A stretch of 32,595 nucleotides of DNA. It comes from a virus. The stretch covers positions 1-32,595 of IMG/VR virus record IMGVR_UViG_3300044675_005493, one strand, 5' to 3'. This document shows, piece after piece, positions 15,820 to 19,342 of this stretch (positions are counted from its first letter, which is position 1; every line of letters begins with the position of its first letter). The position numbers and the translations under genes are program-made. Below the pieces are notes generated by a model. That model was given only the letters and a program-made list of their open reading frames with translations, searched no databases and was not told the DNA's origin.

Positions 15820-15850
15820 AAAAAAACCCCCAAGAAGAACATCCTGGGGG
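15820..15850 (-). terminator. Leftward terminator ahead of the first fibre gene
   Basis: On the minus strand CCCCCA pairs with TGGGGG (6 bp, loop of about 12 bases), followed by T7. It would stop leftward transcripts that begin between it and about 16.1 kb, before the first virion gene at 15769. It could act as an attenuator for the long leftward unit or as the end of a small RNA. Confidence 0.75.
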
Positions 15851-16098
15851 GGTAAAATACCTTATGGGAGTATAAAAGGTATCAGTGGGTGTCAAATAAA
15901 TATGGCAAACCTAAAAAACCACCCAACATATATAGAACAGATATAAAATATCCGATAATGTTCAAAAAAAATGCCCATCTTGTCTATGAGGTAAACTTAA
16001 CGGGCATTCGTAATCAATCTTTTATGGAAAACATTCGTTTGAATTACATTACAATATTAGGTGCACCAGCAAAAAAAAACAACTATTTTTAAAAAAAA

Positions 16099-16586: not shown

Positions 16587-17270
16587 ATGGAAAACAAAAC
16601 AAGCTTTTATCTACACAACGACATGTTGAACGTGTTGGATAAATTAACAGACGAACAAGCTGGAAAGCTATTCAAAGCAATTAGAAATTATCAATATGGC
16701 ATCGAAGATGAGTTGGACCTATTGCTTGAAATTACATTTATGCCATTTAAAAATCAATTTGATAGAGACAACCTCAAATATCAAAGTGTTGTTGAACGCA
16801 ATAAGGAAAATGGTAAAAAAGGTGGACGACCAAAAAAAACCCAGGATAACCCAAAGGAAACCCAAAAGAACCCAAAAAACCCAAGTGGTTTTCTGAATAA
16901 CCCAGAGAAACCCAAAGAAACCCTAAAAGAGAAAGATAATAATAAGGGTAATAATACTGTTAGTGAAACTGATATTGATGGAATTAATTTCTTTAAATCT
17001 ATTAAAGATGAAGAAGAGTTTAATGATGAATTAGGTTGGGATGCTTATCCAGAGGTTTATATACCAAATGTATTTAAAATTGTTTATAACAAACTTGGTT
17101 GTACTAAATCAGATATAAATGATATAAAAAATATGGATGGATACACCAACGGTTCAAATGAAGATAAGTATATTTGTGTATCACAATACATCAATTTAAA
17201 TTATGGTGATAACATAATACCATTTGACATTGCTCAAGATAAATTAAATAAAATTGAATATAATTTCTAA
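16587..17270 (+). CDS. DUF6291-like protein, candidate replication initiator (replisome organizer)
   Basis: A 227-residue protein. The N-terminal 75 residues (SFYLHNDMLNVLDKLTDEQAG, then AIRNYQYGIEDE and FDRDNLKYQSVVERNKENG) match the DUF6291 pattern that ends in KKGGRPKK, seen in phage proteins from replication regions and in front of replisome-organizer-like proteins. A linker (about 84-118) made of Asn-Pro and Lys-Pro-Lys-Glu-Thr repeats follows, then an acidic C-terminal region. The DNA of the linker carries eight AACCC repeats in phase with the helix and is followed by very A/T-rich DNA, which suggests an origin inside the initiator gene as in phage lambda O. No other replication gene is recognisable in the genome, which adds weight. 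Function is inferred. Confidence 0.6.
   Translation: MENKTSFYLHNDMLNVLDKLTDEQAGKLFKAIRNYQYGIEDELDLLLEITFMPFKNQFDRDNLKYQSVVERNKENGKKGGRPKKTQDNPKETQKNPKNPSGFLNNPEKPKETLKEKDNNKGNNTVSETDIDGINFFKSIKDEEEFNDELGWDAYPEVYIPNVFKIVYNKLGCTKSDINDIKNMDGYTNGSNEDKYICVSQYINLNYGDNIIPFDIAQDKLNKIEYNF
16838..16924 (+). repeat. Eight AACCC(A) repeats in helical phase; candidate iterons/origin
   Basis: AACCCA (last copy AACCCT) occurs with its CCC starting at 16840, 16850, 16861, 16871, 16880, 16901, 16911 and 16921. Spacing is 10, 11, 10, 9, 21, 10 and 10 bases, so all copies face the same side of the helix. A/T-rich DNA follows at about 16925-17010. It lies in the middle of the DUF6291-like gene. The repeats also encode the Asn-Pro/Lys-Pro linker, so a protein-level cause is possible. 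Confidence 0.5.
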
Positions 17271-17283
17271 ATAAATTAATACC

Positions 17284-17712
17284 ATGGCAAATACATTAAC
17301 ACCAACACAACAGTTCAAATTAAAAGAACTAAACAACAGACTTTACACAGGTATCAATGGTACCACCAGGGAAGAATTAATTGAAAATTTTGATGAGTTT
17401 CTTCAACAGTATGAAAAACACATCCAATTTTATGAAGAATTAAACTTTTTCAAGAATAGCGTCAAAGAACGCTTCTACATGAAGCAAATGGAGTTAAAGG
17501 TAGGTAAGGGTACCCAAAACAAATTAGAAGCCGTTAAAGGGTGGTTAGAGCAAGGGAAAACCATCAATTGGTTACAGGCTGCTGAGTACTTTGGTTGTGC
17601 CAGGTTGGCACCAGTAATTCATATCCTAAGACATGAACACCAAATGAACATCGTGGATATTGGTGAGCACCGTTGGGCTGAATATAAACTCATAGATGAT
17701 GCCAACGCATAG
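17284..17712 (+). CDS. Protein with C-terminal winged-helix domain (HTH_39-like)
   Basis: A 142-residue protein. The N-terminal half is helical with many aromatic residues (EEFLQ and KHIQFYEELNFF type pattern) and may form a coiled coil. The C-terminal half (about 78-138; WLEQGKTINWLQAAEYFGC then LAPVIHILRHEHQMNIVD) fits a winged helix-turn-helix in which 'ITWLEA..FGC.RLA..I..LR..G..I' is the conserved line. It should bind DNA. It follows the candidate initiator by 13 bases. It could be a transcription regulator of the divergent region or a replication accessory protein. Confidence 0.65.
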   Translation: MANTLTPTQQFKLKELNNRLYTGINGTTREELIENFDEFLQQYEKHIQFYEELNFFKNSVKERFYMKQMELKVGKGTQNKLEAVKGWLEQGKTINWLQAAEYFGCARLAPVIHILRHEHQMNIVDIGEHRWAEYKLIDDANA

Positions 17713-17748: not shown

Positions 17749-18354
17749 ATGGAAACAAAAGAAACAATTAACAATTTATTTGGTAGGACCTTATTGGATA
17801 AATTAAAATTAAACCTTGAAGAGAGTAATCAACTTATTGAGCAATTAAATAACCTAGGTATCGACTTTAATAGAAAAGATGGTAGTTATGACTTTTCAAT
17901 TGACCCAAAAAATATAAATGGTCAATTAATGGAAACAATTTATGCTCATCAAATTACTGATAAAAATATAGAGCATGAGGCAAAATCAGAACATATATCA
18001 AAATGGATGAAAAGTGGAAATATGTACATTGAATATGCTCAACAAAAAAATAATGTGTGGGTACCAAGTGGTATATCAATTACAAAAGCTTCTGTGTGGG
18101 TCCATATCTTAAAAGACTTTGATAATAAGATGTTAATACCAATACCAATACCAACCGACTATCTTTTAAAGAGAATTGAATACCTATTGAGTATTGGTCT
18201 ATGTCGAAAGAGTGGTAAAGTAAGGACGGATGATGGTACGGCCACAAAAGGGTATTTATTACCATTACAATATTTGTACATAACACCAAATGAAATTGGT
18301 TTATATCCAGCGATGGAAAGAAAAATAATATCAGTTAAAATGAAAAACAAATGA
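17749..18354 (+). CDS. Unknown early protein (201 aa)
   Basis: A 201-residue, A/T-rich gene product with no family recognised. The N-terminal part is helical and acidic (ETINNLFGRTLLDKLKLNLEE). The middle contains Gly-rich beta segments and TKASVWVHILKDFDNKMLIP. The last third has LLKRIEYLLSIGLCRKSGK, which could be a helix-turn-helix but is not convincing. No zinc site, nucleotide-binding loop or membrane segment is visible. Its last four bases overlap the next gene (ATGA), so the two are translationally coupled. The neighbouring candidate initiator and winged-helix gene suggest a role in replication or control; this is inference only. Confidence 0.65.
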   Translation: METKETINNLFGRTLLDKLKLNLEESNQLIEQLNNLGIDFNRKDGSYDFSIDPKNINGQLMETIYAHQITDKNIEHEAKSEHISKWMKSGNMYIEYAQQKNNVWVPSGISITKASVWVHILKDFDNKMLIPIPIPTDYLLKRIEYLLSIGLCRKSGKVRTDDGTATKGYLLPLQYLYITPNEIGLYPAMERKIISVKMKNK

Positions 18355-18623
18355 ATAATATGCAAATAACAACTCATGAAGGTTTCCAGGTTGAGGTACT
18401 ACCCAACATATTGAACCTGCGACATAACACCATATGCAAAACACCTAAAGGAACAATTGTGTTGGTGCATAACCAATCCAAGAAACTCCAGCTGGTGTTT
18501 GCACCAGATGTGGATGACTGGACCATCCAAAGCTCTATCTTAGCAATTGAACGCATAACTGAGGCTTTGCCGATGGCAATAACAATACAAAATTACATAC
18601 CACCAATTGATGAAAACTTATGA
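18351..18623 (+). CDS. Small unknown protein (90 aa)
   Basis: Starts at ATG 18351, overlapping the upstream stop by four bases (ATGA), and overlaps the glycosyltransferase start in the same way at its end. Product: mixed beta strands and helices, with ITTHEGFQVEVLPN and KGTIVLVHNQSKKLQLVF near the middle and a helix SSILAIERITEAL. No cysteine motif or membrane segment. It could use the second ATG at 18360. Base composition is visibly richer in G and C than the genes just before it. No function assigned. Confidence 0.65.
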   Translation: MNNMQITTHEGFQVEVLPNILNLRHNTICKTPKGTIVLVHNQSKKLQLVFAPDVDDWTIQSSILAIERITEALPMAITIQNYIPPIDENL

Positions 18624-19342
18624 TAGTACACATACACGTCCTTTGCTACAATGAACAAATCATGATACCACACTTCCTAAGACATTATGGGGATGTGGCC
18701 ACCAGGATATTCGTTTATGACAATATGTCAACAGATAACTCATTAGAGCTTCTTAGAGCGCATGAAAAGGTTACGGTGGTACCTTACGATACCGATGGGG
18801 AGATAAGGGACGACAAGTACCTAGAAATTAAAAATAACGCATGGAAGGACCATGACTGTGATGTTGTCATTGTGGTTGACATGGATGAATTTCTTTATAA
18901 GAAAGACTTGGGCAAATACATCCAAGAATTTCATGAGAGCGAAGCCACCATAGTTAAGCCCCAGGGGTTTGAGATGATGAAACTCTACTTTGACATTACC
19001 AAATCAAAAAACCTTGTTGGTGAGGTTCAAACTGGATACCCACATCACCACTTCGATAAGTTGTGTATGTTCAAACCAAAACACATCACAGATATTAATT
19101 ACAACTTTGGGTGTCACAATGCTGCACCCCAGGGGAACGTGGTACTGTATGACAGACCATGCAAGTTGCTACACTATAAGAAAATTGATATTGACCACTT
19201 CCTGGACAAGATGGAAGCTTACAAAGAACGTATGAGTTACTTCAACAAAGCGTTAAAGTTGGGGTTTGAATATGAGTTTGATGAGGCCAAGCATGAAGCC
19301 AATTTCATGGATGAATTAAAAAAAGTTAAAAAAATTATTTAA
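18620..19342 (+). CDS. GT-A glycosyltransferase (GT2/GT92-like)
   Basis: A 240-residue enzyme expected to transfer a sugar from a nucleotide donor. It opens with VLCYNEQIMIPHFLRHY (residues 6-22) and IFVYDNMSTDNSLELL (about 31-46), the start of GT2/GT92-like folds, and has the metal-binding DVVIVVDMDEFLY (about 81-93) with the DxD at Asp88/Asp90. HNAAPQG and HYKK near the C terminus fit acceptor-side motifs of the same family. It is translationally coupled to the upstream small gene (ATGA overlap). It is the second glycosyltransferase of the genome and the only one in the early unit, so it may act on the host (receptor masking or DNA) before the late genes are made. The substrate is unknown. 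Confidence 0.75.
   Translation: MIVHIHVLCYNEQIMIPHFLRHYGDVATRIFVYDNMSTDNSLELLRAHEKVTVVPYDTDGEIRDDKYLEIKNNAWKDHDCDVVIVVDMDEFLYKKDLGKYIQEFHESEATIVKPQGFEMMKLYFDITKSKNLVGEVQTGYPHHHFDKLCMFKPKHITDINYNFGCHNAAPQGNVVLYDRPCKLLHYKKIDIDHFLDKMEAYKERMSYFNKALKLGFEYEFDEAKHEANFMDELKKVKKII

Follow-up and report, generated by a model that had tools for sequence, protein, structure and literature searches.

The DUF6291 gene and its product

The DNA analysed here, referred to as the window, is a virus record of 32,595 bp. Near its middle lies a gene for a DUF6291 protein whose coding sequence holds an array of short direct repeats followed by an A/T-rich tract, a combination that a first-pass annotation had put forward as a candidate replication origin. 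The features of the locus are the following:

16587..17270, + strand: gene for the DUF6291 protein (227 aa), proposed replication initiator with the origin within its coding sequence, on the basis of Pfam, weak PHROG matches and the neighbours of homologues (DnaB, primase-helicase or loader genes)
16602..16835, + strand: DUF6291 domain, residues 6-83, with three helices predicted at high confidence (Pfam and structure prediction)
16809..16838, + strand: NGKKGGRPKK motif after helix 3, inferred candidate specificity element; conserved in protein with freely varying codons, its type tracking the iteron class
16838..16843, + strand: iteron 1, AACCCA (Thr-Gln)
16848..16853, + strand: iteron 2, AACCCA (Asn-Pro)
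16859..16864, + strand: iteron 3, AACCCA (Thr-Gln)
16869..16874, + strand: iteron 4, AACCCA (Asn-Pro)
16878..16883, + strand: iteron 5, AACCCA (Asn-Pro)
16899..16904, + strand: iteron 6, AACCCA (Asn-Pro), 21 bp past iteron 5
16909..16914, + strand: iteron 7, AACCCA (Lys-Pro)
16919..16924, + strand: iteron 8, AACCCT (Thr-Leu)
16853..16873, + strand: 21-bp block (seven codons, two repeats) missing in the relatives L002 and L003; one of several equivalent placements
16878..16890, no strand: AACCCAAGTGGTT, degenerate counterpart of the conserved palindrome AACCCAGTGGGTT, from comparison with relatives
16924..17010, no strand: A/T-rich tract (78% A+T), proposed DNA-unwinding element, with its weakest 60-bp duplex at 16949-17008
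17284..17712, + strand: next gene (142 aa), with weak winged-helix similarity, at the position of the helicase or loader of relatives and recognisable as neither

The assignment of the host gene to DUF6291 was confirmed, its product matching PF19808 with E=5.4e-25 and 87.8 bits against a curated Pfam cut-off of 27.2. This is the sole significant Pfam match of the protein, which in PHROG matches unknown families and, weakly, primosomal proteins. No match to a lambda O-type family was found for it in Pfam or PHROG; a distant DUF6291 relative (L209) weakly matches an O-like PHROG. AlphaFold2 predicted helices at residues 11-19, 22-36 and 45-77, with pLDDT mostly above 90, and a low-confidence, probably disordered remainder beyond them. 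A fold search with the DUF6291 domain returned no convincing solved structure, so that the predicted fold itself gives no support for DNA binding, and a sequence search of solved structures with the protein gave no match. Spliceosomal fold matches (Z<6) were set aside, as they may merely reflect a common helical arrangement.

An array of AACCC repeats in three codon frames

The eight copies of AACCC begin at 16838, 16848, 16859, 16869, 16878, 16899, 16909 and 16919, and their CCC starts (16840, 16850, 16861, 16871, 16880, 16901, 16911 and 16921) are exactly those given in the first-pass annotation. Successive copies are spaced by 10, 11, 10, 9, 21, 10 and 10 bases, and the mean pitch of 10.1 bp roughly bears out the proposal that the motifs share one face of the helix. 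No other part of the window has such a cluster: there are eight copies per 90 bp here and at most two in any other 90-bp stretch, while the AACCC count over the whole window is at chance (72 observed, 69.9 expected). In two near relatives that are 95% identical (L002 and L003) exactly 21 bp are missing, which corresponds to two repeats, two helical turns and seven codons.

One alternative is that this is an ordinary low-complexity linker of Asn, Pro, Lys and Thr, its repeats arising from amino-acid composition and slippage, and the region is indeed of low complexity and predicted to be disordered. The copies, however, occupy all three codon frames (2, 0, 2, 0, 0, 0, 1, 2) and encode Thr-Gln, Asn-Pro, Lys-Pro and Thr-Leu. 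When the peptide of the window gene was fixed and synonymous codons were drawn at random, a mean of only 2.2-2.7 AACCC was obtained against the eight observed, a count with P of about 1e-5 under genome codon usage and of 2.4e-4 when only the linker's own codons were shuffled. The motif was picked after the window data had been viewed; the homologue sets described below form the independent test and carry the weight.

The DNA motif is kept in homologues while the peptide varies

Homologues were fetched with DUF6291 protein sequences and not with DNA motifs. In 71 distinct linkers obtained in this way, 253 AACCC copies were counted where 40 were expected, and in a partly overlapping collection of 85 GGRP-type DUF6291 genes there were 320 against 64, with none of 500 simulations exceeding 85. 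The step from one copy to the next is mostly 9, 10 or 20 bases; less often it is 30, and a 5/15 variant also occurs. The three frames hold 67, 104 and 90 copies, two or three frames are used in 60 of 72 genes, and period-3 coherence is absent from the array.

Codon choice depends strongly on the context. Asn before Pro is written AAC 94 times and AAT twice in the linkers, compared with 13 and 23 times in the remainder of these genes; ACC encodes Thr before Gln in 99 of 101 cases (3 of 25 in the remainder), Pro after Lys or Glu is CCC in 112 of 147 (16 of 104 elsewhere), and Pro after Asn is CCA in 93 of 96 linker cases, conservation in the homologues extending to AACCCA. The GGRP residues, which are conserved in the protein, use synonymous codons freely and serve as an internal control. 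The homologue alignment that had been proposed as a check of the origin thus came out in its favor, AACCC and its spacing being kept while codon frame and residues vary, and the pattern that would have refuted it, a conserved peptide with codons that destroy AACCC, was not seen (94 AAC to two AAT before Pro in the linkers). The linker-only explanation is rejected by the use of three frames, the excess over the synonymous expectation, the codon context, the frame changes among homologues and the fact that the same DNA gives different peptides, and we give it practically no credence.

The 10-bp phasing was dropped as an independent measure, since synonymous randomisation of the same peptides scores 0.65 against the observed 0.70; the peptide already constrains the phase, and the informative facts are the AACCC count, the mixing of frames and the change of peptide. 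When four AACCC with a period of 10 bp were scanned for, many simple tandem repeats that have nothing to do with initiators came up as well. As far as comparison of sequences can establish it, a DNA signal is kept across about a hundred related phages while the encoded protein changes.

A palindromic element read in two frames

Matches to AACCCAGTGGGTT-N4-GG-N-AACCC, a pattern in which 20 bases are fixed, occur in 51 viral contigs, for which the chance expectation is, by our own estimate, well below 1. Some phages translate the element as KPSGLxGNP and others as NPVGFLETQ; that one element is translated in two frames shows directly that conservation acts on the DNA. Rarely does a DNA signal take precedence over protein sequence so clearly: one stretch of DNA lies in different frames, and the protein follows. 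The translations examined place the element in DUF6291-type linkers, except for a DUF1376-like primosomal protein in L064 (and the fragment L063). In the window phage the central palindrome is degenerate (AACCCAAGTGGTT). The palindrome scan of genome contigs gave seven matches; in three bacterial MAG contigs (L228, L225 and L230) the element is intact and the surrounding reading frame is apparently shifted or lost, and these are possibly decayed prophages or assembly errors.

The occurrence of the element behind different N-terminal families (DUF6291 and DUF1376-like) and before varied C-terminal parts would also fit a recombination landing site, that is, a conserved linker at which phages swap N- and C-terminal modules of the initiator. 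We consider this very unlikely, as it leaves unexplained the 10-bp phasing, the frame shifts with conserved DNA and the existence of a second and a third repeat class (see below).

The A/T-rich flank

Very A/T-rich DNA had been reported after the repeats, and the next 87 bp, with 78% A+T, do fall in the top 1.4% of 87-bp windows. The weakest 60-bp duplex within the tract is at the 99.4th percentile of weakness in the window; the window has still weaker spots outside the tract, of which two lie in the DUF6291 gene itself (at about 17074 and 17239). The A/T-rich flank is also present in the homologue average. An adjacent A/T-rich unwinding element, as is expected of an iteron origin, is therefore supported on composition and duplex stability only, and unwinding is inferred.

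In many loci (L005, L024 and L034, for instance) runs of a GATNNT-type 6-bp repeat, encoding Asp-Ser, Asp-Asn or Asp-Thr, lie past the last iteron, often preceded by a (G/A)CCGATA junction. Under a strict pattern they were found in 28 of 85 genes, and they are perhaps part of the unwinding element.

Gene neighbourhood, a plasmid relative and GC skew

The array-bearing gene occurs in named phages of Vibrio, Aeromonas, Shewanella and Pseudoalteromonas, where an annotated DnaB-like helicase or lambda P-like gene often lies directly 3' of it. Among the 68 next-downstream ORFs of homologues, 22 match DnaB_C and 34 a primase/helicase PHROG, and there are several DnaC-like loaders and one match to SPP1 G39P (these counts overlap). 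While many homologues thus have a helicase or loader beside the initiator gene, none was recognised in the window phage: neither a helicase nor a loader can be recognised in the ORFs at 17284-17712 and 17749-18354, and the earlier remark that no other replication gene can be recognised was borne out for the + strand cluster of the window with Pfam and PHROG. The same cluster includes a glycosyltransferase family 2-like gene (18620-19342), and ACCCCC and TGGGGGGGT arms, which form a possible hairpin, lie at 15825-15852, in the space that separates the genes of the - strand block from those of the + strand block.

A circular Spirosoma plasmid record of 17,271 bp, which includes phage genes, has the DUF6291 frame intact, with the palindrome and six copies of AACCC (spaced by 10, 10, 20, 10 and 10 bases). 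The annotated start of this gene (NZ_CP056033.1, 5778-6236; L260) is too late, the DUF6291 frame beginning upstream and including the array. A search for plasmids near-identical to one viral relative found no match.

The GC skew, suggested earlier as a further check, gave a mixed answer. In four phage relatives the array lies within 1.4-6.1% of the detrended minimum, whereas in the window and in the Spirosoma plasmid it is not at an extreme, the window array being 12% of the record away from the skew minimum. As a locator of the origin the skew was discarded, being moreover confounded by gene orientation, which switches at the same place.

Comparison with known origins and a proposed mechanism

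Origins inside the initiator gene are already known, from lambda (PMC7466680) and from SPP1 (PMC6316719). As in lambda and lambdoid origins, the array of the window phage lies in the middle of the initiator gene and is followed by an A/T-rich tract, and a helicase or helicase-loader gene comes after the initiator gene, here in the relatives. In Stx phages two more iterons add 13 aa to the initiator (PMC7466680), and extra iterons lengthen the protein here as well, two of them by 7 aa. Lambda differs in having four longer iterons with inverted CCC/GGG ends, compared with a 6-bp core at a pitch of about 10 bp here; the relatives of the window phage have one central palindrome, and the window protein matches DUF6291 in Pfam and not lambda O. 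In the Bacillus phage SPP1, oriL lies in gene 38 (G38P being the replisome organizer, G39P the loader and G40P the helicase), and it too places direct repeats and an A/T-rich unwinding element inside the gene of the origin-binding protein (PMC6316719); in one relative the array gene is immediately followed by a member of the G39P family. SPP1 has, in addition to oriL, the origin oriR some 13 kb away, and the window protein has no match to a replisome-organizer family of the G38P kind. PICI/SaPI origins also combine iterons with an A/T-rich melting region (PMC6092414), but they lie 3' of the initiator gene and not within it, and sets of iterons flank their A/T-rich region on either side.

The repeats almost certainly form an array to which protein binds. 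They also fulfil one criterion of an iteron-type intragenic theta origin, as several direct repeats in phase, constrained as DNA, lie within the gene of the proposed initiator. All the DNA-level evidence, on the other hand, concerns binding sites and not replication as such, and a phased array fits any cooperative DNA-binding protein. It could then be an intragenic operator through which the DUF6291 protein or another phage regulator controls transcription of the replication operon, the origin being elsewhere. We regard this as unlikely, given that the array is in mid-gene rather than at a promoter, that it has an A/T-rich flank, that the helicase or loader genes of relatives come after the array gene, and that the origins of lambda and SPP1 occupy the same position (PMC7466680; PMC6316719).

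Most likely, the array is the place where DNA copying begins, an activity that is inferred in the absence of binding or replication data. More specifically, we think it probable that 16838 to about 17010 constitutes a lambda-like intragenic origin with DUF6291 as initiator, AACCCA as iteron and the A/T-rich tract as melting site, although there are no binding, footprint, read-depth or plasmid data. The earlier origin proposal stands as far as the DNA-level signal in homologues and the lambda O-P type gene order in many phages are concerned; its replication function is unproven. The DNA constraint, the composition of the flank, the synteny in relatives and the association of motif with repeat class (below) were obtained by computation. 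For binding, melting, recruitment of the helicase and origin activity we rely on inference from lambda and SPP1, and on that analogy the DUF6291 protein, through its three-helix domain and the basic GGRPKK segment, would bind AACCCA about once per helical turn; an oligomer would assemble as a nucleoprotein complex along one side of the DNA and, by strain, open the A/T-rich DNA that follows the last iteron; and a DnaB-type helicase, the product of the next gene in many relatives and either host-encoded or unrecognised in the window phage, would then be recruited.

No paper mentioning DUF6291 was found in the library searched, and nothing relevant on an AACCC iteron of this kind in the literature searched. 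Within the reach of these searches, what would thus be new is the family of initiators, the design with one iteron per turn, conservation irrespective of frame, and the naturally occurring repeat classes. A domain family of unknown function would acquire a probable function, and the origin of many phages would become predictable from sequence alone.

Repeat classes and the motif after helix 3

Where relatives lack AACCC, a different repeat takes its place in a similar arrangement, either TACCA with the palindrome TACCACTGGTA or AGCAA, and these relatives have another residue motif after the DUF6291 helices; one relative (L097) has AACCT in place of the expected AACCC. In the protein-fetched set, the GGRP motif goes with AACCC in 79 of 85 cases, GGK/GGE/GAEA with AGCAA in 18 of 18 and KR[YWH] with TACC in 7 of 7, and AACCC is absent from the AGCAA and TACCA classes. 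Each of these two repeats is in synonymous excess in its own class (AGCAA, 96 observed and 19.5 expected; TACCA, 22 and 4.6). These classes also bear on whether the GGGTT strand might act in replication or expression through a G-quadruplex or other nucleic-acid structure, for which eight G3 runs at a pitch of about 10 bases are available on the - strand. The TACCA and AGCAA relatives, however, keep a similar layout without G3 runs, and the conservation of AACCC reaches AACCCA, which leaves this explanation barely tenable.

The classes were defined after the sequences had been seen, and since motif and iteron are neighbours in the DNA their association could partly be physical linkage; judged from the sequences, it is also what coevolution of initiator and iterons would give, and it speaks only indirectly for iteron binding by the initiator. 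Natural iteron classes make the specificity between protein and DNA directly testable by swaps of motif and repeat. We advance only tentatively, leaning slightly against it rather than for it, the wider hypothesis that DUF6291 is a widespread undescribed class of phage initiators, whose all-helical DNA-binding domain would place one subunit per turn on 6-bp iterons in its own gene, with specificity largely set by the motif after helix 3 (GGRP for AACCC, GGK/GGE/GAEA for AGCAA, KR[YWH] for TACC), the whole forming a swappable initiator-origin cassette.

Finally, three initiator-type genes (L179:1720-2361, L201:3-452 and L202:6706-7518) carry the array in the opposite orientation, with GGGTT recurring at intervals of 10-11 bases on their coding strand; one of them is weakly DUF6291 and two match DnaD-like/replisome-organizer PHROGs.
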